A stretch of 64,000 nt of DNA. Source: Alkalinema sp. FACHB-956. Its GTDB lineage: Bacteria > Cyanobacteriota > Cyanobacteriia > Leptolyngbyales > Leptolyngbyaceae. A model generated the notes under the pieces. The model saw only the letters and a list, made by a program, of their open reading frames with translations. It was not told where the DNA came from and searched no databases. Each line of letters begins with the position of its first letter. Position 1 is the first letter of the stretch. The translations under genes and the position numbers were made by a program. This document shows, in pieces, positions 47,598 through 64,000 of the stretch. The stretch lies in NCBI RefSeq assembly GCF_014697025.1, contig NZ_JACJRC010000022.1:1-64000 (forward strand). The letters are read 5' to 3'.

Positions 47598-48050
47598 ATG
47601 CAACAGTACGATTTTTACGGTAGACACCTCTTGCTCAACTTTTCAGGCTGCGAAGCAGACCTGAATGATCTAGAAATGATCAAGCGAGATATGACCGACG
47701 CAATTAATGTGATCGGGGCTACGATTCTTTCCCATTTGGAGCATAAGTTTACTCCAGAGGGGCTTTCGATAATCTTCTTGCTTTCAGAATCTCACGCGAG
47801 TATTCACACTTATCCTGAATACAACGCTTGTTTCCTGGATGTATTCACGTGCGGCGAGACTATTTTTGTTGAACCTTTCGGCGACATTCTGGAAGAACGA
47901 TGGCGGCCCCGCTGGGTTTCGCGACAGATGCAGGAACGTTTCGATCCGGCTCGGTTCGATCCCACGAAACTGGATGCAGAAAAACTCAATTCCGTGCAAC
48001 TTGATCCCTCGCAGCTCAAGTTGCCAGTACTTAGTGGTGCAGTGAGGTAA
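47598..48050 (+). CDS. speD: S-adenosylmethionine decarboxylase proenzyme (SpeD)
   Basis: A 150-residue proenzyme of the bacterial class 1B type. It cleaves itself between Glu64 and Ser65 in LLSESHASIHTYPE, turning Ser65 into the pyruvoyl cofactor; His70 and Cys85 (DVFTCGE) are the usual processing and proton-donor residues. The product, decarboxylated AdoMet, provides aminopropyl groups for spermidine. From residue about 113 the chain carries an unusual tail with a regular five-residue period (FDPAR-FDPTK-LDAEK-LNSVQ-LDPSQ-L). The start ATG lies about 107 bases after the amine-oxidase relic. No speE is present in the window. Confidence 0.93.
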   Translation: MQQYDFYGRHLLLNFSGCEADLNDLEMIKRDMTDAINVIGATILSHLEHKFTPEGLSIIFLLSESHASIHTYPEYNACFLDVFTCGETIFVEPFGDILEERWRPRWVSRQMQERFDPARFDPTKLDAEKLNSVQLDPSQLKLPVLSGAVR

Positions 48051-49570: not shown

Positions 49571-49637
49571 ATTGAAACTGCCAACTCTGCCCCATTCGTT
49601 GGTTGTTTGCAGAGCTGTTTCTACGGCTATTTGCACC

Positions 49638-50942
49638 ATGAAACATTTTCAATTTCCCACGCGCCGCACATTTCTGAGTTGGGCCGCTCTGGGGCTGGGA
49701 GGGTTAACCCAAGCCTGCCAAGCCTCTCCTCGATCGACCTCCCAAAACGCCGCAACCGGGGCGATCGAACTCACCGTTATGATTGGGGCCCAGGAAATCC
49801 CCACCTGGAAGCCCGTGATTGATCAATGGGAAGCCCAGCAATCCCAAATTCGCATCAAAATTATTGAAGGCCCCACAGCGACCAACTTAGTGGAAGATCT
49901 CTACACCTCAGCCTTTTTGCTCGGGAAGTCGCCCTATGATTTGATTTTCATGGATATTGTTTGGGTGCCAAAATTTGCCGCTGCGGGATGGTTGCTGGAT
50001 CTCACCGATCTGCTCTCAGCGGCTGATTTAGCCGATTTCCTCCCAGCCGATGTGGCGGGGGGACGCTATGCAGGGGGGCTGTATCGGCTGCCCGCCCGTA
50101 CCGATGCAGGACTGTTGTTCTATCGTCAGGACTTACTCGCAGCGGCGGGCTATCAACCACCGGAAACCACGTTGGAACTGCTCAAAATTGCCCAAGACCT
50201 CCAAAAGCAACAAAAAGTGCGGTGGGGCTATCTCTGGCAAGGGAAACAGTACGAAGGATTACCGGCCATGTTTGTCGAAATTCTGGCGGGCCATGGGGGA
50301 TTTTGGGTCGATTCGGAAACCCGCACAGTGGGCCTCGATCGGCCCGAGGCGCTCAATGCCTTGCAATTTCTAGCAGAGACCCTCGCTGCAAAAATTTCAC
50401 CACCTGGCGTCACGACTTACCAAGAAGAAGAAACCCGCCGCATGTTTCAAAATGGCGATGCCCTCTTCCTGCGGAACTGGCCCTACGTCTGGCCCTTGGC
50501 CAATGCCACCGACTCCCCAGTGCGCGGCAAAATTGCCTTGAAACCCATGGTGCACGCGCCGGGATTTGCCAGTGCTGGCTGCTTGGGTGGTTGGGGCTGG
50601 GGCATTGCCAAATCCACACGGCATCCCGAAGCCGCATGGCAGGCGGTGCAACATTTATGCAGTTCCATAGCGCAAAAACAAATGACCCTAGCCTACGGTT
50701 ATCTGCCGACCCGCCGATCGCTCTACCAAGATCCGGAAATTTTGCAGAAATACCCGTTTTTCCCATCAATGCTGACGGTGTTGGAAGCAGCGGTATTGCG
50801 CCCCCCGATCGCCCAGTATGCCCAAGCTTCCGATATCCTCCAGCGCTACCTCAGTGCCGCTTTGAGCAAACGCCTGTCCCCGGAACAAGCCCTGCAAGCG
50901 GCAGCCACTGAAACGCGACGTTTGTTAGGAACCGGCCCATGA
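49638..50942 (+). CDS. Sugar ABC transporter substrate-binding lipoprotein
   Basis: A 434-residue family 1 solute-binding protein. The N-terminus TRRTFLSWAALGLGGLTQAC has a twin-arginine pair, a hydrophobic core and a lipobox ending at Cys, so it is exported (possibly by Tat) and lipid-anchored. The mature part shows IELTVMIGAQEIPTWKPVID, SPYDLIFMDIVWVPKFAAAG, YRLPARTDAGLLFYRQDLL, PETTLELLKIAQDLQKQ, MFQNGDALFLRNWPYVW and LGGWGWGIAKSTRHPEAAWQ, as in maltose/trehalose-type binding proteins. The ATG at 49638 places the signal correctly. It overlaps the next gene by four bases (ATGA) and heads a four-gene importer operon. The sugar is not predictable; glucosylglycerol/trehalose-type systems are candidates. 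Confidence 0.9.
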   Translation: MKHFQFPTRRTFLSWAALGLGGLTQACQASPRSTSQNAATGAIELTVMIGAQEIPTWKPVIDQWEAQQSQIRIKIIEGPTATNLVEDLYTSAFLLGKSPYDLIFMDIVWVPKFAAAGWLLDLTDLLSAADLADFLPADVAGGRYAGGLYRLPARTDAGLLFYRQDLLAAAGYQPPETTLELLKIAQDLQKQQKVRWGYLWQGKQYEGLPAMFVEILAGHGGFWVDSETRTVGLDRPEALNALQFLAETLAAKISPPGVTTYQEEETRRMFQNGDALFLRNWPYVWPLANATDSPVRGKIALKPMVHAPGFASAGCLGGWGWGIAKSTRHPEAAWQAVQHLCSSIAQKQMTLAYGYLPTRRSLYQDPEILQKYPFFPSMLTVLEAAVLRPPIAQYAQASDILQRYLSAALSKRLSPEQALQAAATETRRLLGTGP

Positions 50943-51865
50943 GTGATTCTCGATCTGTGAACGATCGCACGATCCCAACGATCGTCCAACGGGAACGGCG
51001 TACCCATTGGCTATTGCTAGCTCCCGCCCTGCTACTGCTACTCTGCGTGTTTGCTTACCCGATTCTGCGGGCGGTCTGGCAAAGTTTGTTTATCCAGAAT
51101 TTAGGCACAGAACTACAACCCCAATTTTCTGGATTGGCAAACTATGGGCGAATGGCGGCGGATAGTCGATTTTGGCAAAGTTTGATGAATTCCGCTGGAT
51201 TTACGATCGTCTCTGTGGCGATCGAATTAATTCTCGGTATGGGAGTCGCGCTGTTGTTAAATCAATCGTTTCGGGGTCGGGGCATTGTGCGGACGATCGC
51301 AATTTTGCCCTGGGCGTTGCCGACCGCATTAATTGCCTTGGCTTGGACGTGGATTTTTAATGATCAGTTTGGCATTGTTAATGATTTACTAATGCGGATT
51401 GGGATGATACAACAGGGCATCAATTGGCTGGGCGATCCCACCTTAGCGATGGTTGCGCTGATTGTGGCAGATGTTTGGAAAACGACACCGTTTATCAGCA
51501 TTTTATTACTCGCCGGACTACAAGCAATTCCCACCGACCTTTACGAAGCCCACGCGATCGATGGCGCGAGCTCTTGGCAAAGCTTCTGGAAAATCACCTT
51601 ACCGCTATTGATGCCGCAGATCATCATTGCAGCCCTCTTTCGCTTTGCCCAAGCCTTTGGCATTTTCGACTTAGTTGCCGTCATGACAGGCGGTGGCCCT
51701 GGGGGGGCAACGGAAATGGTGTCACTCTACGTTTACGCGACTATTATGCGTTACCTCGATTTTGGCTATGGTTCAGCGCTAGTCGTTGTGACTTTTCTCC
51801 TGTTAATGCTGACTGTTGCCGTGATGACGCTACTCGTGAAAAAACTCCGCAAAAACTTGGCCTAG
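50939..51865 (+). CDS. Sugar ABC transporter permease, MalF/UgpA type
   Basis: A 308-residue inner-membrane permease with six predicted helices after a short cytoplasmic head. The EAA loop that contacts the ATPase is EAHAIDGASSWQSFWKITLP. Other typical pieces are LLLAPALLLLLCVFAYPILR, LPWALPTALIALAWTWIFND and VMTGGGPGGATEMVSLYVYA. Translation is coupled to the binding-protein gene through the ATGA overlap. It should pair with the following MalG-type permease to form the CUT1 channel. Confidence 0.93.
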   Translation: MSDSRSVNDRTIPTIVQRERRTHWLLLAPALLLLLCVFAYPILRAVWQSLFIQNLGTELQPQFSGLANYGRMAADSRFWQSLMNSAGFTIVSVAIELILGMGVALLLNQSFRGRGIVRTIAILPWALPTALIALAWTWIFNDQFGIVNDLLMRIGMIQQGINWLGDPTLAMVALIVADVWKTTPFISILLLAGLQAIPTDLYEAHAIDGASSWQSFWKITLPLLMPQIIIAALFRFAQAFGIFDLVAVMTGGGPGGATEMVSLYVYATIMRYLDFGYGSALVVVTFLLLMLTVAVMTLLVKKLRKNLA

Positions 51866-51880
51866 AACTTTTGATTCACT

Positions 51881-52720
51881 ATGATCATTTCCCATCAATT
51901 TTCCAAAGTCCTTCGATCGATCGTCATTGCGATCGTCGTTCTGTTCTGTCTTGCCCCAATCCTTTGGCAAGTGCTAACTTCCTTTAAAACCAATACAGAT
52001 ATTGCAGCCATTCCCAACATATTTCTACCCCGACAATTCACCCTAGGCCACTATGAAGAACTCTTTGCCCGTCGTCCTGTTTGGAATTATTTACTGAACA
52101 GTACAGGGGTCGCGAGTATCTCCACGCTTTTATCCCTGGGCTTGGGGGCACCTGCGGCCTATGTGCTAGCTCGGGCTAAGTTACCGGGAGAACGGCTGAT
52201 TTTAGCAACTATTTTATTACTGACGTTATTTCCATATATTCTTCTGTTTCTGGGATTATTGGAACTCGTGCAAAACTTTGGTTTAGGCAACCAATATCTT
52301 GCCCTGATCATCCCTTACACTGCCATTAATCTGCCCCTAACGATTCTGGTATTGCGGAGTTTTTTCCAGCAGTTACCGATCGAACTTGAAGATGCGGCGC
52401 GAATCGATGGTTACAGTACCCTTGCCATGCTGGTTCAGATTGTCCTCCCGATGACGGTGCCTGCGCTGGTGACAACGGGGATTCTAGCGTTTATTTTTGC
52501 TTGGAATGAGTTTATTTTTGCCTTGACCTTTATCACCCAAGAATCCATGAAAACCATTCCCGTTGCGGCCTCCCAGCTAGGTGGAGCCTCGGTGTTTGAA
52601 ATTCCCTACGGCCCGATCGCGGCAGCCACCGTCCTGGGAACATTGCCGTTAGTGGGATTAGTGTTGGCGTTTCAACGACGAATTATTAGTGGGTTAACCG
52701 CTGGTGCAGTCAAGGGATAA
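51881..52720 (+). CDS. Sugar ABC transporter permease, MalG/UgpE type
   Basis: A 279-residue permease with six helices. It begins IISHQFSKVLRSIVIAIVVL and carries the EAA loop EDAARIDGYSTLAMLVQIVL-P and the typical end FAWNEFIFALTFITQESMKT, VAASQLGG and QRRIISGLTAGAVKG. It starts 15 bases after the first permease gene. Together the two genes encode the membrane part of a CUT1 importer. Confidence 0.93.
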   Translation: MIISHQFSKVLRSIVIAIVVLFCLAPILWQVLTSFKTNTDIAAIPNIFLPRQFTLGHYEELFARRPVWNYLLNSTGVASISTLLSLGLGAPAAYVLARAKLPGERLILATILLLTLFPYILLFLGLLELVQNFGLGNQYLALIIPYTAINLPLTILVLRSFFQQLPIELEDAARIDGYSTLAMLVQIVLPMTVPALVTTGILAFIFAWNEFIFALTFITQESMKTIPVAASQLGGASVFEIPYGPIAAATVLGTLPLVGLVLAFQRRIISGLTAGAVKG

Positions 52721-52827
52721 GTCAATGATCAGAAGATTGTCGATTTAACATAGAGCATTTTTAACATCGAGCATTGTAGAAACTGCAAAGATTAGCCATC
52801 GCTCAAGAGATTGCTGGAGGTTCATCC

Positions 52828-53940
52828 ATGACAGCCCTAGAATTACAAAATCTGCGAAAGACTTATAGCACAACGGTCATTCCTGTACAGCAAATTAATC
52901 TAACGGTACAGGAAGGAGAATTTTTAACACTGTTGGGGCCTTCAGGCTGCGGTAAGTCTACGATTTTGCGTTTAATTGCGGGCTTGGAACAGCCTACCCA
53001 AGGCAAAATTCTGATTAATGGCCAAGATGTCACTGCGCTCAGTCCGGGCGATCGCAATATCGCCATGGTGTTTCAAAGTTATGCCCTCTATCCCCACATG
53101 ACTGTGCGCGATAACATCGCCTCTGGCCTGAAACTGCGCAAAGTTCCTGCGGGTGAAATCCAGCGACGGATTCAAGAGGTTGCCCTCTTTCTGGGGTTGG
53201 AAGCGCTCATGGATCGCAAACCGGGTCAACTCTCCGGCGGGCAGCGCCAACGGGTAGCTGTGGCACGGGCATTGGTACGTCAACCCGCAGTCTTTTTGCT
53301 GGATGAACCGTTGAGTAATTTGGATGCGCTACTGCGGGAACAGGTGCGGGCAGAACTGAAGCAACTGTTTGCAGCCCAATCTGCCCCCGTAGTCTATGTC
53401 ACCCACGACCAAACGGAAGCCATGACGCTCTCCACCCGAGTTGCAGTTCTGTACGACGGCGAGTTGCAACAACTGAATACACCGCAACAGATTTACGCCC
53501 ATCCCGCCAATCAGTTTGTCGCAGGATTTATTGGCAGTCCGCAAATGAATTTTTGGACGCTACCCTGTAGCGATCGCACCGTTAGTCTAGGCCCTTTGCA
53601 CATTCCCTTACCGTCCCAGGTGCCGAACTCCAATGCTGTCGTGTTGGGAATTCGACCTGAACAGGTGGGACTCGCCTTGGAAAACAACGATCGCTGTCTT
53701 ACAGGGCGCGTTCAACTCGTCGAGCATCTGGGCATGTCATGGTTAGTCACAGTTGCAATTCCGGCATCAGATCCAGCTATAGACAATCAACCGTTGACAA
53801 TACGGGCCGTTTTACCCGCCGATCGTAGTTATTCTGTGGGTGATGAAATTTCTCTGCAATGTCCGATCGAGCATCTCCATTGGTTTGATGTCACGAGTGG
53901 TCGAGCCTTTGAGTCCGATCGAACTGCGTCGAGGCTTTAA
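52828..53940 (+). CDS. Sugar ABC transporter ATP-binding protein, MalK/UgpC type
   Basis: A 370-residue ATPase with all motifs: Walker A GPSGCGKST, Q-loop VFQSYALYPHMT, signature LSGGQRQRVAVARAL, Walker B VFLLDEPLSNLD and H-loop YVTHDQTEAM. After residue about 235 a MalK-type OB/TOBE region follows (IGSPQMNFW, VVLGIRPEQVGL), which in relatives receives regulatory signals. It lies 107 bases after the second permease gene; in many cyanobacterial sugar systems the ATPase is encoded elsewhere, so its presence here makes the importer self-contained. Confidence 0.94.
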   Translation: MTALELQNLRKTYSTTVIPVQQINLTVQEGEFLTLLGPSGCGKSTILRLIAGLEQPTQGKILINGQDVTALSPGDRNIAMVFQSYALYPHMTVRDNIASGLKLRKVPAGEIQRRIQEVALFLGLEALMDRKPGQLSGGQRQRVAVARALVRQPAVFLLDEPLSNLDALLREQVRAELKQLFAAQSAPVVYVTHDQTEAMTLSTRVAVLYDGELQQLNTPQQIYAHPANQFVAGFIGSPQMNFWTLPCSDRTVSLGPLHIPLPSQVPNSNAVVLGIRPEQVGLALENNDRCLTGRVQLVEHLGMSWLVTVAIPASDPAIDNQPLTIRAVLPADRSYSVGDEISLQCPIEHLHWFDVTSGRAFESDRTASRL

Positions 53941-54320: not shown

Positions 54321-55016
54321 ATGACTAAATTTCAGCCCTACGGATTATCTTCCAAGCAAGCTCAGCAAGATACCAAAATGGACATCGATCGCATGCGGGA
54401 AGTCGTCATCCTGCTGGAGCATTTGGCAAAACAGGAAGAAAATACCCTACGGATGATTTTAGATCGTTTGTATGATGTTGGTTCTACCCATCTGATCAAT
54501 CAAAAACTGCCGCAACCTTGGCTGAATAAATTTTCTAGATCGATCGCTGGCATGTCCAAACCTGTTTTTCGGACATTTGCAGTGCGGTGGTTTCACAAAA
54601 ATTGTCCTCAAATGATTGCTGATTGGCTATACACGGTAGCCACTTTTCAAACCCAGCGTACTCGCCGTCAGAACCAAACCGATTCCGATTCAGGGCAAAA
54701 GACCATGCAAGAGGCTGTCATCTTGACAGCGGCTCCTACACCCGTTTTACCCGCCGCCACCCCAAGTTTGCAACCGGCTGATTCGGGTGAAGTGCCTGCC
54801 ACGATCGTGGTGCTCAATCAACTACAAGCCTCACAGCAGGAAATTCAATTTCTCAGAACTCGGATTAAGTGGATGACGGGCGTTGTGGTTGGATTAACGA
54901 TCGCCGTTGGGAGCCTCACCGTGAGTCTGACAAGACCCCTGCAATGGGTTCCTACCACGAATAGTGCACCGCCTGCTCAACAGGGTTCAGCGTCTACGAT
55001 CGGTCAAATGCCCTAA
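54321..55016 (+). CDS. Hypothetical single-pass membrane protein (231 aa)
   Basis: The N-terminal 110 residues are helical and charged (KMDIDRMREVVILLEHLAKQ, LRMILDRLYDVGSTHLI, FRTFAVRWFHKNCPQMIADW). A Pro/Ala/Thr-rich linker follows (about 125-160), then a short coiled coil (LNQLQASQQEIQFLRTRIKW), one membrane helix at about 183-204 (TGVVVGLTIAVGSLTVSL) and a short Pro/Ser-rich end. I do not recognise the family. The layout suggests a cytoplasmic head tethered to a membrane. It precedes the histidine kinase gene by 302 bases in the same direction; a link is not shown. Confidence 0.6.
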   Translation: MTKFQPYGLSSKQAQQDTKMDIDRMREVVILLEHLAKQEENTLRMILDRLYDVGSTHLINQKLPQPWLNKFSRSIAGMSKPVFRTFAVRWFHKNCPQMIADWLYTVATFQTQRTRRQNQTDSDSGQKTMQEAVILTAAPTPVLPAATPSLQPADSGEVPATIVVLNQLQASQQEIQFLRTRIKWMTGVVVGLTIAVGSLTVSLTRPLQWVPTTNSAPPAQQGSASTIGQMP

Positions 55017-55318: not shown

Positions 55319-58072
55319 ATGGTTATCTCGATCTCGGCAAATCCTAGCGTTTCTCTACATTTAGGCAATTTACTGCACCGAATTAACCACCAGATTCGGA
55401 AATCCATGGATCTGGTCACCATTCTGGATGCAACTGCCACAGAGTTACAAAGATTCTTGGAGATCGATCGCCTCAAAATTTACCAATTCCATGGCGATGG
55501 CAGTGGCAAAGTCGTGGCGGAAGCCCTGGGAGCAGAACAGCGCTTACCGACTCTGTACGGCTTAAACTTTCCAGCGGATGATATTCCACCCGAGATTCGC
55601 CAGCTTTTTATCGCAGCCAAAGTAAGAACGGTGGTCGATGTTTCATCCCGCGAAATTGGGCAAAGCTGCCTGCGCGATCCACAAACCGGGGAACTGCAAG
55701 CAGAAGATTGGCACTTTCGCCCCTTGGATCCGTGTCATGCAGAATATTTAACCGCCATGGGCGTGAAGTCTTCCCTGGTGGCTCCGATTCTGCATCAGGA
55801 TCACCTCTGGGGTCTGATTGTCGCTCACCATGCTGACCCAAAACGGCTGGCCACAGAGCAGATTGAAGGGGTGCAACTGGTGGTTGACCAAGTGTCGATC
55901 GCGATCGCCCAAGCCACCTTAGTGCAACAAGCCCAGGAAAAAGCCTCGCGGGAATCGGCGCTCCGACGCATTACGAACTTTCTCTATTCCTCTACCCAGA
56001 TTGAACTTCAAGCAGCCCTCGAGGAAACCATTAAGGCCTTTCAGGGAACTGGCGGACGTTTATTTATTCGACCTGGCGTGTTGACGCAGGCGTCAGATCT
56101 GGCTTCGACCCATCAGGTCATGGAAGCCATGGTCTACACTTGGGGCTTACAACCCGATCAACAATTCTCTCCCCTCTCCAATATGGAGGAATGCCATGGG
56201 CTACAACAACACTTCGCGACGGGCGAGGGGCTAGCTTGGGCAATCAATGACATCTTTCAAGTTCCTGTACTGCGAACGATTCAGCCCCTATTCCATACCA
56301 CCTCCATTCGTAGTTTGTTGATTATTCCCTTAATTGCAAGACAACGGCTGCTTGGGTACTTAACCGTTTTTCGCAATAGCTTTGAAACCGAAACTCTGTG
56401 GGCCGGAGAATTTAATCCCGATCAGCGACAATTCTATCCCCGTCAGTCCTTTGAAATTTGGCGACAGTCTCGCACCAATCAAGTGCACTCCTGGACAGAC
56501 AGTGATGTAGAACTATCACAAGTGATTGGCAATCAATTTTCCGCTGCGATCGAACAATATGAACTCTACCAAAAGCTACAAATCCTCAACGCAAGCCTTG
56601 AACAGCAGGTAGAACTTCGCACCGCTGAATTGCAAGAAACGACGGATGATTTACAACAGGTAACGGATCAACAACACATTCTTTTTGAAGTGGTGACTCG
56701 CATTCGTGAGTCACTGGATTTGCAAACGATGTTCCAAACCACGACTCAAGAAATCTGTCAGGCATTGCAAGCCGAACGTGTTGCCCTTTACCAGTTTCAT
56801 CCAGACTGGAGTGGTCGTTTTGTGGGGGAATATGTTGTATCCGGTTGGAGAAAGTTAGTCGAACAAGACTCCGGCATCACGATCGAAGATACCTATCTCC
56901 AAGAAACCCAAGGAGGACGATATCGGAATCACGAATTTTGGGTTGTTAACAATGTTCAGCAGGTTGGGCTTGCCGACTGTCATATAGAGCTATTACAGCA
57001 TTTCCAGGCTCAGTCCTTTGTCATTGTCCCAATTTTTATGGGACAAGATTTGTGGGGACTGCTGGGTGCCTATCAAAACTCGCAGCCTCGTGAATGGGAA
57101 GAGTCGGAAGTCAAATTTCTCGTTCAAATTGCAGCCCATCTAGGAGTGGCCATTCAGCAAGCAAGTCTTTTGACACAGACACAACAGCAAGCAACGGAAT
57201 TAGAAAATGCCTTAGCAGAACTCAAGCAGACCCAAACCCAACTGATCCAAACCGAAAAGATGTCTAGTTTAGGGCAGTTAGTGGCGGGGGTGGCCCATGA
57301 AATCAATAATCCGGTGAATTTTATCCATGGCAATATTCGTCATGTGAGCGATTATGCAGACGATCTGCTCAATTTGTTGAAACTCTATCAACAGGAGCAT
57401 CCCATTGCCAGCGATCGGATTCAGGATTGTCTTCAGTCTGTGGATTTAGATTTCCTCGTGGAGGATTTACCCAAGACCTTAAATTCCATGAAGATTGGGA
57501 CAGAACGGATTCGACAAATTGTCTTGGCTCTACGCAATTTCTCACGGCTGGATCAAGCGGAAATTAAACCCGTAGATCTCCATGAAGGGTTAGAGAGTAC
57601 GCTGATGATGGTGCAACATCGTCTTAAAGGCCAGTGTGATCATCTCCCTATCCAAATCGTGAAGTCCTATGGGGGCTTACCTGAGGTGGAATGCTGCGCA
57701 GGGGCCATCAATCAGGTCTTTATGCACCTGTTGAGCAATGCGATCGAGGCGATCGAGGAAAAAAGGCGGCATCTGTCGTTAGAAGAACGGGCCTTGTATT
57801 TGAGTACGATTGAAATTCGGACAGAAGTTGTGAATGACGATCGCGTCGCCATTCATATTGCTGATAATGGGCAGGGAATTGCTAAGGAAATTCAACAATT
57901 GATTTTCGATCCCTTCTTTACGACCCGTCCCGTTGGCCAAGGCACAGGTTTAGGGCTCTCCATCAGCTACCAGGTCATTACAGAACAACATGCAGGGAGT
58001 GTGACTTATACATCGGATTGGGAACGGGGCAGCGAGTTTACGATCGAATTACCCATTACCTTCCATGGGTAG
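55319..58072 (+). CDS. Multi-GAF sensor histidine kinase with two Cys-His (phytochrome/cyanobacteriochrome-type) GAF domains
   Basis: A 917-residue soluble kinase. GAF1 (about 20-200) reads FPADDIPPEIRQLFIAAKVR and FRPLDPCHAEYLTAMGVKSS, with Cys139-His140 at the bilin-attachment position of phytochrome-like GAF domains. GAF2 (about 215-415) has SIRSLLIIPLIARQRLLGYL and no cysteine there. A coiled coil (about 420-450) leads to GAF3 (about 455-615), where VGLADCHIELLQHFQAQSFV and WGLLGAYQN again show Cys554-His555 at the cyanobacteriochrome position. Then comes the kinase: QTEKMSSLGQLVAGVAHEIN with His660, NQVFMHLLSNAIEAIE (N box), ADNGQGI (G1), IFDPFFTTRPVGQGTGLGLS (F and G2). Light-sensing is inferred from the two Cys-His pairs; bilin binding must be tested. 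No response regulator gene is adjacent. Confidence 0.85.
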   Translation: MVISISANPSVSLHLGNLLHRINHQIRKSMDLVTILDATATELQRFLEIDRLKIYQFHGDGSGKVVAEALGAEQRLPTLYGLNFPADDIPPEIRQLFIAAKVRTVVDVSSREIGQSCLRDPQTGELQAEDWHFRPLDPCHAEYLTAMGVKSSLVAPILHQDHLWGLIVAHHADPKRLATEQIEGVQLVVDQVSIAIAQATLVQQAQEKASRESALRRITNFLYSSTQIELQAALEETIKAFQGTGGRLFIRPGVLTQASDLASTHQVMEAMVYTWGLQPDQQFSPLSNMEECHGLQQHFATGEGLAWAINDIFQVPVLRTIQPLFHTTSIRSLLIIPLIARQRLLGYLTVFRNSFETETLWAGEFNPDQRQFYPRQSFEIWRQSRTNQVHSWTDSDVELSQVIGNQFSAAIEQYELYQKLQILNASLEQQVELRTAELQETTDDLQQVTDQQHILFEVVTRIRESLDLQTMFQTTTQEICQALQAERVALYQFHPDWSGRFVGEYVVSGWRKLVEQDSGITIEDTYLQETQGGRYRNHEFWVVNNVQQVGLADCHIELLQHFQAQSFVIVPIFMGQDLWGLLGAYQNSQPREWEESEVKFLVQIAAHLGVAIQQASLLTQTQQQATELENALAELKQTQTQLIQTEKMSSLGQLVAGVAHEINNPVNFIHGNIRHVSDYADDLLNLLKLYQQEHPIASDRIQDCLQSVDLDFLVEDLPKTLNSMKIGTERIRQIVLALRNFSRLDQAEIKPVDLHEGLESTLMMVQHRLKGQCDHLPIQIVKSYGGLPEVECCAGAINQVFMHLLSNAIEAIEEKRRHLSLEERALYLSTIEIRTEVVNDDRVAIHIADNGQGIAKEIQQLIFDPFFTTRPVGQGTGLGLSISYQVITEQHAGSVTYTSDWERGSEFTIELPITFHG

Positions 58073-58347: not shown

Positions 58348-60249
58348 CTATCCTGCTTTTTGCTGGCGTTCCTGTTGGCGTTCGCGAATTTGTTCCAGCG
58401 TGCCCACCGGAATTGCCTGGATGAGCGTTTTCGTATATTCCTGTTGGGGGGATTCGTAAATCCGATCGGCAACATCCATTTCCTCGATTCTGCCACGATT
58501 CATCACCATAATGCGATCGCTCATGAATTTGACAACGCTGAGGTCATGGGAAATAAAAACATACGTTAGGCCAAATTCCTCTTGAAGCTCTTTCAATAAA
58601 TTCAACACTTGCGCTTGAACTGAGACATCCAAAGCGGAAACAGATTCATCACAGATAATAAATCGAGGATTCATCGCCAACGATCGGGCAATACAAATCC
58701 GTTGTCGCTGTCCTCCGGAAAATTGATGGGGATAGCGGGTCATGGCATCTGCCGACAAACCTACTCGGTTTAGCAGATAACTAGCACGATCGCGAAATTC
58801 ACGGCTATTTTTACCACCAAAAATCTTCATCGGTTCCATAACCGCTTCCCCGATACTCATGCGTGGATCGAGGGAACTGAAAGGATTTTGGAAAATGATT
58901 TGCATTTCCTTGCGCAATTGCCGGAGCGCATTGGGCTTTAATGCCAGAATATCTTGGCCATCGAACAGAATTTTACCCGACTGTGCATTGACCAATCGCA
59001 GAAGTGTTCTTGCTAGCGTTGTTTTACCACAACCGGACTCACCCACCAATCCCAGGGTTTCCCCAGGATAGATATCAAAAGAGACATCATTGACCGCCAT
59101 CATATAGTGCTGGGTTCGCCCCAACACACCTTTGATGGGATAAGCAACCCGCAAATTTTGTACCGATAGCAGCGGGGGTTGCGATCGCAGAGCCTGCAAG
59201 CGATCGTGTTTTTCCGCTGGTGTCACTTCTGGGAGGGTTTGTAAAACCTGATCCACATTGACCTGTCGGGCTTCAATGCGTCGCTCCCCGGTTTCCGTGG
59301 TCACAACTTCCATGAAATCGGAGACGGTGGGCAATACTTTGAACGAGCGATCGGGGCGAGGCCGACAGGTTAACAATCCTTGGGTGTAGGGATGGCGCGG
59401 CTGTTCAAACAGATCTGCTACAGCCCCGTATTCAACAATTTTGCCTTCATACATCACCGCAACTTGATCGGCAATTTCGCCGATGAGACCCAAATCATGG
59501 GTGATAAAAATCATGCCCATGCCCCGGCGATCGCGCAATTCCCGCAGCAATTCCAGCACCTGGGCTTGAATGGTGACATCCAGCGCCGTTGTCGGTTCAT
59601 CTGCAATCAACAGCGCAGGATTACAGGAAATTGCCATGGCAATCATGACCCGCTGCAACTGTCCACCGGACATTTGGTGAGGATAGCGATTGAGCAGGGC
59701 TTCCTTTTGCCGATTCATAGCGCGATCGATTTCCCTCACCCCGTCCGTCAGCAACTGTTCCCGCAGATCATGGTCACTGGGCAGCAAGCGCACTTCCTGG
59801 AGCAGGGACACAGCTCGACGACGGGCTTCCGCTTCTCCGACCTGTTGGTGGAGTTGGATTGCTTCGGTCAGTTGGAACCCGATCGTATGAACCGGATTGA
59901 GGGAACTCATCGGTTCCTGGAAAATCATGGCAATCCGTCCACCCCGCAGGTCTCGTAGCTGCTGGGGCGCAATTTTTAATAAATCAATCTGGCGATCGCC
60001 CTCCTGAAACCAAATTTCTCCGGCTGTCACCTTTCCCGGTGGGCTGGGTACCAACCCCATCACCGCTAAGGAGGTGACCGATTTTCCGGATCCTGACTCG
60101 CCCACAATGCCCAGGGTTTGTCCCGGCAAGACCTGAAAGGAAATCCCATCCACCGCATTAATCACAGTAGGGGCATTGCCTTTGCCAGAACTGGCCTCGG
60201 TGGTGAACTGTACTTGCAGATTGCGAACATCCAGGATGGGTTGAGTCAT
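58348..60249 (-). CDS. Dipeptide/oligopeptide-type ABC transporter, two fused ATP-binding domains (DppD-DppF/GsiA-like)
   Basis: A 633-residue protein with two complete ATPase domains. The first (about 5-275) has Walker [26 protein letters not shown], signature [14 protein letters not shown] and Walker [15 protein letters not shown]; the second (about 345-610) has [41 protein letters not shown] and [14 protein letters not shown], where the usual Glu after DE is followed by S. HPYTQGLL and [11 protein letters not shown] are the oligopeptide-type C-terminal signatures. Fusion of the DppD and DppF halves is known in GsiA and in several cyanobacteria. No permease or binding-protein gene is near, so its partners lie elsewhere. 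The ATG at 60249 ([15 protein letters not shown]) is preferred to a TTG at 60270. Confidence 0.93.
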
Positions 60250-60382
60250 AGCGGCTACGAAGGTGAACAACTCCAGACTAGCTTATTTGCCATCTTACAG
60301 GAGGACTCCTCTATTCAGGTGCTCTCCGGTTGCAGTGGAGAGTGAATTTATTCCAGGTAAGTTGAGTGAAGTCGCCGCCGGA

Positions 60383-60434
60383 GATGACTTTGGGAGTTCT
60401 GTCCTTATGCAGGGGCAGAACTCCCAAAGTCATC
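60383..60434. repeat. 19-bp inverted repeat spanning the stop codon of the giant repeat protein gene
   Basis: GATGACTTTGGGAGTTCTG (60383-60401) is the exact complement of CAGAACTCCCAAAGTCATC (60416-60434). The loop of 14 bases contains the TAA stop (60405-60407) of the minus-strand gene. No T-tract follows on either strand. Confidence 0.9.
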
Positions 60435-63400
60435 AAATCCTTCTATCCGCCAGTTCAAGTCTGAGTAGCTGGGTAGAACGATCGCACTACCGTAGTTAAC
60501 CCCATTCATGTACCACACTTGAGTAGAGCCAGTACCAGGATTCACCCAGAAAACATCCAAAAATCCATCCCGATTAAAGTCGCGAATGCCCTGAATTTGC
60601 CAATTTCCACTGGGTGCTGGCTTCACACGATAGGACTGAACCAAATTAAAGCCGTTCATTGTCCAGATAGCTACATCTTGGGTCGAGGAATTAAACCAGA
60701 GAAGGTCTACTCGACCATCTTTGTTAAAATCACCAATTGATTCAATACGCCATGCAATATCTGCCACTGATGGTAAGTTGATGCTTTGTAGATAGCTAAA
60801 TCCATTCATTTTCCAAATCGCTGTCTGCCCAGTGCGGTAATTGCGCCAGAGGATGTCAGGTTTACGATCGAGGTCAAAGTCCGCAATACCTTCAATTTGC
60901 CACGACAGATCGGCAACCGTGATCAGAGTGTGACTTCGAACATAGCGATCGCGATTCATTTCCCAAATGCCAACTTGGCCAGTAGAGCGATTTTGCCAAA
61001 GGATATCAAGATCTCCATCCCCATCGAAATCTGTCGCCCCTTGGACTTTCCAGCTTACATCGGTTACCTGAGGAATGTTAAATGTGGCAGTCACAAGCTG
61101 CGTATTGTTCATGATCCAAAAGCCACTAGATCCCGTGCGCTGATTGCGCCAGAAAATGTCAACTTTTCCATCCCCATTAAAGTCACCCGTCAATTCAGCC
61201 TTCCAACTCAAATCATCAATTCGAAAAACGTTAAATGCTTGATTAAAGGTGGAACTATCAACTGTCCAAATATAGGTTTCACCCGTTTTAGAATCTCGCC
61301 ACAGGATATCAGCATTTCCATCAGTACCAAAATCACTCAAACCGGCAATCGACCAACCGCTAGGTGCATTCGGTAGCACAACCGCCACTCCATAGGCATC
61401 GCGATTCATATACCACAGTGCGACTTCCTGGGTTTGCTGATTTTGCCACAGGAGATCCGAGCTACCATCTTTATTAAAGTCTGAAATCCCCTTAATCTCC
61501 CACTGAGCTTCAGGAACCCTAAACAATTTGGTACTGCTAACGAACCGACCGTTATTCATGATCCAAATCCCATTTTCTCCAGTGCGGTAGTTGCGCCAGA
61601 GGATATCAGACTTAAGATCGCCATTGAAGTCCGCAATTCCTGCAATTTTCCAGGACAGATCCGGAACCGATAGCAAATCAACGGGTTGCAAACGAATTCC
61701 AGTCGCATCAGGGCGAATCAACCAATCGGCCATCGCCCCTGTAAGTTGATTTCGCCAAACAATATCAGTCACCTTATCGCCATCTAGATCACCGACGCTT
61801 TCAACAACCCAATCACCATTCCCAATTGTGAGCAGGCCATAACCGTTAGCGACGACAGTGCCATTCATAGCCCAGACTTGTACTGCACCCACTTGCGTTT
61901 GACGCCAAAGAATATCAACCCGTCCATCACCTGTAAAGTCTCCAATGCCTTCAATCTTCCAATTAGTATCCGCAACAGTTGGTAGAAGTACATCTTCAAC
62001 ATAGCTGGTTCCGTTCATTCGCCAAATCAAATTGGCTCCAGTGAAGAGGTTACGCCAGAGAATATCAGCATCTCCATCTCCATCAAAATCTGCCGTACCC
62101 TGAACTTGCCAATTGGAGTTGCCAATAGATTTGTTGAGGTTATATTGGTTGACCGAGGGAGTTTGATTGATCTGCCAAAAGACAACATCACCTGTATTGG
62201 TATTCCGCCACAAAAGATCGGTATTGCCATCAAGAGAGATATTAGTTGCCATATTAGCTGCATCATCGTTAATAATTAAACCGTTGGCAGAAGCTGTACC
62301 AATTGTTGCTCCAGAGGCATTACTTAACTGGACGGAGAAGTTCTCATCAGACTCAGTAACCGTATCTCCCTTGACATCGATCGTAATGACCTTAGAAGTC
62401 TCACCCGTAGCAAAGGTCAATGTTCCTGCTTTTTGGACATAGTCGTTATTCGCGATCGTTGCTGTCCCATCTACGGTTGTATAGTTCACCGTCACTGGAG
62501 TCGTCGCAGCCTGGGAAAGATTGACGGTAAATGTAAAGGCTTTGGTGCCGCTGTTACCTTCAGTTTGCGCCGCGTTAGTCGGTACAATGCTCAGACTGGG
62601 GGACGGGGCAACATCATCATTTTGAATAATTCCATCTTGGCTGGCGGTCCCGATCGTCACACCGACAGGATTCTTCAGTTGTACCTTAAAGGTTTCATTC
62701 GATTCGACTTTCGTATCTCCATTTACCGTAATACTAAACGTCTTTGTCGTTTCACCTGCATTAAAGGTCAGACGGCCATTACTCACTGCAAGATAGTCAT
62801 TATCCGCGATCGTTGCAGTGCCATCGATCGTGTCATAGTCAACAGTCACAGTCGAAGTGGCTGCTTGGGATAAGGTTGCTGTAAACGTATAGGTCGTTGT
62901 TCCTGCATTGCCCTCATTTTGGCTAATCGCAGTCATTCCTAGGGAGACAGTGGGTAACTGTCCGTTGGTAGAGTCGTCATTAGAAATGGTTGCAAAGGCT
63001 GAAAGGACATCAATCTTAGCGTTAGTTGGGTTGCTCAAGTTCAGCGAGAAGTCCTCATCCGCTTCAACAGTATCATCTCCACGAATGGTCACATTGACGG
63101 TTTTACTCGTTTCCCCAGGTGCAAAGGTGAGAGAACCTGACACTGGCACATAATCATTGCCTACTGAAGTGGCCGTCCCATCCACCGTTTCATAGGTAAC
63201 GGTCACAGGTTGTGTAGCAGCACTGGACAACGAAATTGTAAAGGTCACAGTTTTTGTGGTTCCAGTATTCCCTTCAACCACAGTATTCGGCGTGGCAATG
63301 ACGGAAAGCCCGGGTAATGGGGCAGCATCATCGTTGACAATTTCACCCGTTGCTTCGGTGCTTCCCAAGAGTGCATTTTGAGGATTACTGAGTTGGAGTT

Positions 63401-64000
63401 TGAACGTTTCATTCGCTTCAAAACTGGGATCCCCAAACACTTCGATCGTCACGGTTTTAGTCGTTTCACCGGCAGCAAAAATTAGTGTACCGGCCTTGCC
63501 ACCATAGTCTGCGGATAGACCAGCACTCACGGCTGTACCATCGACGGTGGCATATTGTACTGAGACCTGTTGCGTAGTGGGTTGATCTAGCTGGATAGTG
63601 AATTGGTAGAACTGGCTACTGCTATTACCTTCCGATTTAGAAACTAAGGTTGGAGTGACAGAAATTCTCGGGACAACGGGAGCATCATCATCGGTAATGG
63701 TTCCGGTACTCGCCAGTGTTGCAGCTCCACCCGTGAAGGTGGCGTTACTAGCACCACTGAGTTGAACTTGGAAGGTTTCATTGGCTTCCGGTGTTGTGTC
63801 TCCAGCAACTTGAACGGTAATGTTTTTACTAGTTTCGCCAGGATTGAACGTTAACGTCCCCGTATTTGCTGTGTAGTCCGATCCCGCAGTGGCTGTCCCA
63901 TCCTGGGTCGTATAGTTAACAGTGACAATTTCACTGGAGGGGTTTGACAAATTGATGGTGAAGACTGCAGGTGTATTACCACTATTGCCTTCCGCTGTAG
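60405..64000 (-). CDS. Giant surface/exported protein: Calx-beta domains followed by FG-GAP/VCBS repeats (5' end outside window)
   Basis: The frame is open to the window end; about 1198 C-terminal residues are visible. The first part has five Calx-beta domains (first partial), each with an EGNSG opening, TVNYTT/VDGTAT, a NNDYxx..GTLTFxxGETSK core and NDD at the end; these are Ca2+-binding beta-sandwiches. From about 62250 downward twelve repeats of about 50 residues follow, each with an F-x-D/NGDG-DILWRN loop and a TG..-IW-MNG half (for example DFDGDGDADILWRN). The aspartate loops resemble Ca2+-binding FG-GAP/VCBS blades, so a beta-propeller-like adhesin or exoprotein is likely. The chain ends shortly after the last repeat in DDFGSSAPA. 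The N-terminal secretion signal cannot be seen. Confidence 0.9.
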   Translation of the reverse strand, partial: TAEGNSGNTPAVFTINLSNPSSEIVTVNYTTQDGTATAGSDYTANTGTLTFNPGETSKNITVQVAGDTTPEANETFQVQLSGASNATFTGGAATLASTGTITDDDAPVVPRISVTPTLVSKSEGNSSSQFYQFTIQLDQPTTQQVSVQYATVDGTAVSAGLSADYGGKAGTLIFAAGETTKTVTIEVFGDPSFEANETFKLQLSNPQNALLGSTEATGEIVNDDAAPLPGLSVIATPNTVVEGNTGTTKTVTFTISLSSAATQPVTVTYETVDGTATSVGNDYVPVSGSLTFAPGETSKTVNVTIRGDDTVEADEDFSLNLSNPTNAKIDVLSAFATISNDDSTNGQLPTVSLGMTAISQNEGNAGTTTYTFTATLSQAATSTVTVDYDTIDGTATIADNDYLAVSNGRLTFNAGETTKTFSITVNGDTKVESNETFKVQLKNPVGVTIGTASQDGIIQNDDVAPSPSLSIVPTNAAQTEGNSGTKAFTFTVNLSQAATTPVTVNYTTVDGTATIANNDYVQKAGTLTFATGETSKVITIDVKGDTVTESDENFSVQLSNASGATIGTASANGLIINDDAANMATNISLDGNTDLLWRNTNTGDVVFWQINQTPSVNQYNLNKSIGNSNWQVQGTADFDGDGDADILWRNLFTGANLIWRMNGTSYVEDVLLPTVADTNWKIEGIGDFTGDGRVDILWRQTQVGAVQVWAMNGTVVANGYGLLTIGNGDWVVESVGDLDGDKVTDIVWRNQLTGAMADWLIRPDATGIRLQPVDLLSVPDLSWKIAGIADFNGDLKSDILWRNYRTGENGIWIMNNGRFVSSTKLFRVPEAQWEIKGISDFNKDGSSDLLWQNQQTQEVALWYMNRDAYGVAVVLPNAPSGWSIAGLSDFGTDGNADILWRDSKTGETYIWTVDSSTFNQAFNVFRIDDLSWKAELTGDFNGDGKVDIFWRNQRTGSSGFWIMNNTQLVTATFNIPQVTDVSWKVQGATDFDGDGDLDILWQNRSTGQVGIWEMNRDRYVRSHTLITVADLSWQIEGIADFDLDRKPDILWRNYRTGQTAIWKMNGFSYLQSINLPSVADIAWRIESIGDFNKDGRVDLLWFNSSTQDVAIWTMNGFNLVQSYRVKPAPSGNWQIQGIRDFNRDGFLDVFWVNPGTGSTQVWYMNGVNYGSAIVLPSYSDLNWRIEGFDDFGSSAPA

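Follow-up and report, generated by a model that had tools for sequence, protein, structure and literature searches.

A probable All2699-type histidine kinase with two photosensors in the cyanobacterium Alkalinema sp. FACHB-956

A gene of Alkalinema sp. FACHB-956 probably encodes a soluble histidine kinase of the All2699 type with two photosensors. Located at positions 55319–58072 of the forward strand (on which all of its features described below also lie), in a window of 64,000 nt that comprises the whole stretch of DNA analyzed, it is open for 917 codons from an ATG and, according to the ORF and Pfam matches, has the layout GAF1-PHY-GAF3-histidine kinase. The two-sensor design is already known from Nostoc (All2699), and for the window protein a dual-bilin reading of the sequence is very likely.

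From the domains, residues, predicted fold, and family of the protein, we infer how bilin attachment, colours, kinase control, and partner might fit together. GAF1 would carry phycocyanobilin on Cys139 in a pocket closed by the PHY tongue, and would switch between a red dark state and a far-red photoproduct. GAF3 would carry a second phycocyanobilin on Cys554, with a dark state that is red or orange-red and a photoproduct that is orange or green. Both sensors would be joined through helices to the single kinase, which would autophosphorylate on His660 and hand the phosphate to a response regulator whose gene lies elsewhere.

Domain layout and the phytochrome module

Pfam recognizes three GAF stretches, a PHY domain, and a HATPase_c domain in the 917-aa protein. 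The predicted structure, which was based on an alignment of 56 sequences (55 of them from the 66 relatives described next), has a mean pLDDT of 81.4 and a pTM of 0.48, with pLDDT below 50 at residues 361–379 (tongue) and 627–646 (coiled coil preceding the kinase). Helices at residues 179–222, 394–442, 445–464, and 595–693 are situated between sensors and kinase.

The 66 full-length relatives were drawn from 110 loci, 39 of which were dropped as having no ORF with a single match of more than 800 residues; these 39 include longer proteins with two tandem GAFs. Also dropped were L001 (the window itself), L063, L078, and L084 (longer ORFs), and L034 (a duplicate of L005). Sets of 67 proteins below consist of the 66 relatives and the window protein; one relative, L027, lacks its first 60 residues. 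Pfam scans of six relatives (L004, L018, L027, L039, L050, and L064) gave matches to GAF, PHY, HATPase_c, and HisKA in each of them. With the whole protein as query, 149 of the 291 genomes of the class, including that of Alkalinema itself, have a match at E ≤ 1e-100; because many of these matches are partial, the design occurs in at most this number of genomes.

The Cys-His pairs that a sequence-only reading of the window had placed in two GAF domains, Cys139-His140 (PCHAEYL) and Cys554-His555 (DCHIELL), are present at those positions, and each motif is followed by an LWGL strand. Both bilin cysteines are kept in 64 of the 66 relatives (the exceptions being L056 and L070), a retention beyond chance, which makes it unlikely that one domain is a blind remnant, as had also been suggested. 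When the bilin pockets were aligned, the other pocket residues were found in both GAF1 and GAF3, save for the lid Trp of GAF3, so that the proposed dual-bilin photoreceptor is well supported at the level of sequence.

GAF1 (approximately residues 34–203; 55418–55927) has a phytochrome-type bilin pocket, with Cys139 encoded at 55733–55735. It matches 6ozb and 6oza over residues 6–201 (E = 9e-64 and 9.5e-64, respectively), and in the model, it superposes on chain C of 6ozb with an rmsd of 1.4. Positions that we take to be pocket-lining after canonical phytochromes are kept in nearly all relatives (Y55 in 65 of 66, D88 in 66, I89 in 65, P90 in 65, R103 in 65, and R134 in 61), as are Cys139 (65/66), H140 (65/66), and H170 (66/66).

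The region that the sequence-only reading called GAF2 is a PHY domain (approximately residues 204–440; 55928–56638). Pfam PHY (PF00360) scores 30.7 bits against a cut-off of 27 at residues 333–412, a weak match compared to two far stronger PHY matches elsewhere in the same genome (206 and 198 bits, on contigs C9 and C12); the tongue motifs and the structural matches to 8w26 and 4bwi give the same assignment, and a degenerate GAF is thereby ruled out. The earlier remark that this domain lacks the cysteine holds for the bilin site, but the domain is not a GAF. An unrelated Cys292-His293 pair lies inside the PHY domain, apart from the bilin site. No N-terminal PAS domain was found in the Pfam scan of the 917-aa protein, in which GAF1 starts at approximately residue 34. 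Because the second domain is PHY, the GAF1-PHY module is, by its domain layout, a knotless (Cph2-type, group II) phytochrome.

The best solved sequence relative of the module is 8w26 (residues 17–437, E = 3.5e-77). In the structural ranking of the model, 8w26 (SyB-Cph1 GAF-PHY) also comes first (TM by target of 0.81), followed by 8upk (a full bacteriophytochrome) and then by 4bwi (Cph2). The likeness to Synechocystis Cph2 and to SyB-Cph1 is that of the GAF1-PHY module, to which the comparison refers; the outputs of Cph2 are GGDEF and EAL domains.

The PHY tongue spans approximately residues 355–395 (56381–56503). Of the three tongue motifs defined as W(G/A)G, PRXSF, and WX(D/E) (PMC6696110), the window protein fits the first two with WAG and PRQSF, whereas its third is WRQ; the model has a pLDDT below 50 at residues 361–379 of the tongue, whose packing on GAF1 is therefore putative. 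Among the 66 relatives, W361 is kept in 65, G363 in 64, P374 in 61, R375 in 52, S377 in 65, F378 in 65, and W381 in 64; PRxSF is whole in 50. Position 383, in the third motif, is E or D in 61 relatives and Q, as in the window protein, in 4. A salt bridge between D87 and R380 is described in All2699 (PMC6696110), and the counterparts of these residues in the window protein are D88 and R375.

All2699 of Nostoc 7120 is reported to have a histidine kinase preceded by three GAF domains, of which GAF2 is PHY-like with a tongue (PMC6696110), and All2699g1g2 has been named a knotless phytochrome (PMC12907550). Its g1 binds phycocyanobilin and converts from 638 to about 685 nm, and its g3 binds phycocyanobilin and converts from 645 to about 595 nm (PMC6696110). 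Dark reversion of All2699g3 takes 20 s, and such domains are described as likely power sensors (PMC6121604). The notion that one kinase may integrate two colours is to be taken with caution: both photoactive domains of All2699 have red dark states, and they differ in photoproduct and dark reversion.

Like All2699 of Nostoc (Anabaena) sp. PCC 7120, the window protein combines GAF1-PHY, a cyanobacteriochrome GAF, and a kinase in one chain and has both cysteines, but its GAF1 is only 53 per cent identical to that of All2699. The relative nearest to All2699, L039 of Nostoc parmelioides (GAF1 95 per cent identical to the 6ozb sequence), shows an identical set of Pfam domains but W at the lid site, where the window protein has Ile522. 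In the GAF1-PHY tree, the front end of the window protein branches apart from the Nostocales clade to which L039 belongs, which speaks against strict orthology to All2699: a single clade of the window GAF1-PHY and the 14 Nostocales proteins is rejected (p-AU = 3e-4, indicative only, as the group was named after the tree was seen).

A red/green-type GAF3 with isoleucine at the lid site

GAF3 (approximately residues 456–627; 56684–57199; Cys554 encoded at 56978–56980) is assigned to the red/green type of cyanobacteriochrome domains by sequence matches and by its position in the GAF3 tree, where it shares one clade with 22 other red/green-type domains (support of 100). It matches 6bhn, 5zoh, and 3w2z over approximately residues 457–627 (E = 1.1e-54 to 9.1e-53) and has the red/green (XRG) marks Cys554, His555, Asp524, and GGRY; among the relatives, Cys554 is kept in 65 of 66 and H555 in 54. 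In its pocket, Asp524, Cys554, and GGRY, the domain resembles NpR6012g4, AnPixJg2, and Slr1393g3, with which we identify the matched entries 6bhn, 5zoh, 3w2z, and 5dfx. It differs from these domains in being placed behind a phytochrome and in having Ile522 (codon at 56882–56884 by alignment) in place of the tryptophan that forms the ring-D lid of red/green domains.

The lid site is W in 21 of the 22 other full-length proteins with a red/green GAF3. Across the 112 distinct red/green-type domains of the sampled loci (window included), it is W in 96, V in 9, L in 3, and I in the window protein alone, so that 16 domains, 9 of them with Val, lack the Trp, mainly within a single group. The usual residues at D524 and L527 are each found in 111 of the 112 domains, and the tuning positions F501 and F562 are F in 96 and 63, respectively.

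Slr1393g3 variants with H, Y, or L at the lid site (W496) are reported to have a mixed dark state that is blue-shifted by 26–30 nm and a nearly unchanged photoproduct; more generally, lid-site substitutions in Slr1393g3 and NpR6012g4 gave mixed dark states and partial photoconversion, and the Trp is described as partially conserved and dispensable for the photocycle (PMC11733413). Its absence is therefore no bar to membership in the XRG class. By analogy with the W496 variants, the dark state of the window GAF3 is predicted to be blue-shifted and mixed, and the domain can be regarded as a natural counterpart of the published lid-Trp mutants. Its photoproduct could be orange or green, as L039 has the same two Phe and yet the product of All2699g3 is orange.

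The incomplete photoconversion of the lid variants of Slr1393g3 and NpR6012g4 (PMC11733413) would also be consistent with GAF1-PHY being the sole working switch, GAF3 then binding bilin, switching poorly for want of its lid Trp, and serving mainly to link the phytochrome to the kinase. We consider this unlikely, given the dispensability of the Trp reported in the same source, the near-universal retention of Cys554, and the 16 red/green-type domains that do without the Trp. A GAF3 that switches as a second sensor is the preferred reading.

Second sensors among the relatives

The part of these results worth following is a pattern at the level of the family. GAF3 types of the 67 proteins, labeled by motif pattern and then by eye, comprise 23 red/green-like domains (window included), 15 DXCF domains with a second Cys, 4 DXCF-like domains without it, 24 domains of a third type, and 1 domain with no Cys. 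The DXCF label was given by motif only and was neither confirmed nor refuted by a PDB search with the GAF3 of L018, in which 6oap and red/green entries rank above 3vv4 and 4fof, which we take to be DXCF proteins. A PDB search with a third-type GAF3 (L050) gave no clear assignment.

All trees are of a quick kind. The red/green type, a single clade on the GAF3 tree, requires 8 changes on the GAF1-PHY tree, at least 4 of them by starred branches, and its grouping as a single clade there is rejected (AU test; p-AU = 5e-65). On the kinase tree, it requires 9 changes (at least 2 by starred branches), and the rejection of a single clade is weaker there (p-AU = 0.006) in a test that excluded L027 and L042, both of which are long branches. 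The groups 'P0001 + 14' and 'P0001 + L003 + L031' were chosen after seeing the trees, and their p-values are indicative only.

The front end of the window protein joins L027 (DXCF) with a support of 97, and then L004 and L014 (DXCF lineage) with a support of 95; the window protein and L027 are both on longish branches. Its kinase falls in a set of nine that is mixed (four red/green and five of DXCF lineage), and the kinase therefore does not settle the kin of the window protein.

Thus, GAF3 type is discordant with the GAF1-PHY tree, and red/green, DXCF-like, and third-type domains occur on similar kinases, so that the second sensor may be a cassette that has been exchanged, or else the remainder of longer GAF arrays. 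In the tree of the 112 red/green-type domains, the nearest to the window GAF3 is the second tandem GAF of Nostocales kinases of approximately 1,100 aa, although no starred branch holds the window GAF3; for the window protein, loss from an array and import of a cassette thus explain the pattern equally well. These longer kinases, found at L064:5962–9306 and at similar loci among L060–L088, have GAF1-PHY followed by two tandem red/green-type GAFs. They share with the window protein the Pfam matches to GAF, PHY, HisKA (weak), and HATPase_c, and the identity of its GAF3 to their second tandem GAF is at most 61 per cent, but the window protein has one red/green-type GAF and not two.

We tentatively propose, at slightly less than even confidence, that these proteins combine a fixed red/far-red phytochrome front and a kinase back with a second sensor (red/green, DXCF, or third type) that has often been exchanged or dropped from longer arrays; in the window protein, a red/green cassette whose tuning changed when the lid Trp was lost would then sit on a front whose nearest kin have DXCF-lineage sensors. 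If so, the kinase interface accepts differing second colours without being rebuilt. GAF-domain shuffling among cyanobacteriochromes is a common view, and an earlier account of second-sensor exchange was not found in a search of open-licence PMC papers but may exist. All2699-like kinases offer a natural series, with one phytochrome and varied second colour sensors, which could reveal directly how the input of two light switches is read by a single kinase and at which junctions sensors can be swapped.

Kinase, chromophore supply, and genomic surroundings

The kinase region begins with a HisKA-like stretch (residues 641–746; 57239–57556) that scores 23.1 bits against PF00512, under the cut-off of 26.9, and contains the putative phosphoacceptor His660 in AHEINNP. 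The HATPase_c domain follows (PF02518, E = 1.5e-22; residues 797–913; 57707–58057). H660, N807, D849, and G851 are kept in all 66 relatives and G875 in 65. The H-box His and the ATP-binding N and D/G motifs are thus all present, which by sequence classifies the protein as a histidine kinase.

For bilin supply, the genome has two heme oxygenase matches and three ferredoxin-bilin reductase matches, two of which adjoin on contig C11 (10165–11582), with the third elsewhere. The adjoining pair, which we guess to be PebA and PebB, suggests phycoerythrobilin synthesis. These three reductases, together with 6ozb being a phycoerythrobilin-bound crystal structure of an All2699-type GAF, would allow for a protein that carries phycoerythrobilin in place of phycocyanobilin and is not photochromic; we give this only a slim chance, as phycoerythrobilin-bound All2699g1 has been likened to a fluorescent, non-photochromic protein (PMC9705869) and would provide no switch. 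It is equally improbable that the protein serves as a scaffold irrespective of light, or senses something else, with inherited bilin pockets that stay empty in the cell, since the pocket residues and both cysteines are conserved and the genome has bilin synthesis genes. Phycocyanobilin in both domains remains our preferred reading.

As the sequence-only reading had noted, no response regulator adjoins the kinase gene: a receiver-domain model built from 9 seeds (replacing a 2-seed version), which matched 30 of 30 control loci, has no match in the 64,000-nt window. The genome has at least 151 receiver-domain matches, and among the matches listed, the only one on the contig of the window lies outside it, at C22:75551. 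A receiver domain occurs within 1 kb of the kinase in 5 of the 67 proteins (L004, L010, L018, L020, and L032), of differing kinds and strands. No conserved neighbouring regulator was found at the 67 loci, where, as only 29 are longer than 14 kb, partners may have been missed. At L004, a receiver-plus-kinase hybrid of 374 aa is encoded 246 bp downstream of the kinase on the same strand, and it represents a possible partner type for a close relative of the window kinase.

Upstream of the kinase gene, the window encodes an S-adenosylmethionine decarboxylase family protein (47598–48050, +), a sugar-type ABC importer (49572–53940, +) that consists of a solute-binding protein and, after it, two ORFs resembling permeases and one resembling an ABC ATPase, as read from the ORF list, and a 231-aa protein (54321–55016, +) whose sole match is a sub-threshold DUF3038. 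Downstream, a double ABC ATPase of the oligopeptide type (58348–60270, −) is convergent with the kinase gene, and it is followed by a large protein (60405–63950, −) with five Calx-beta repeats, several repeats of FG-GAP-like type, and a weak match to W_rich_C.
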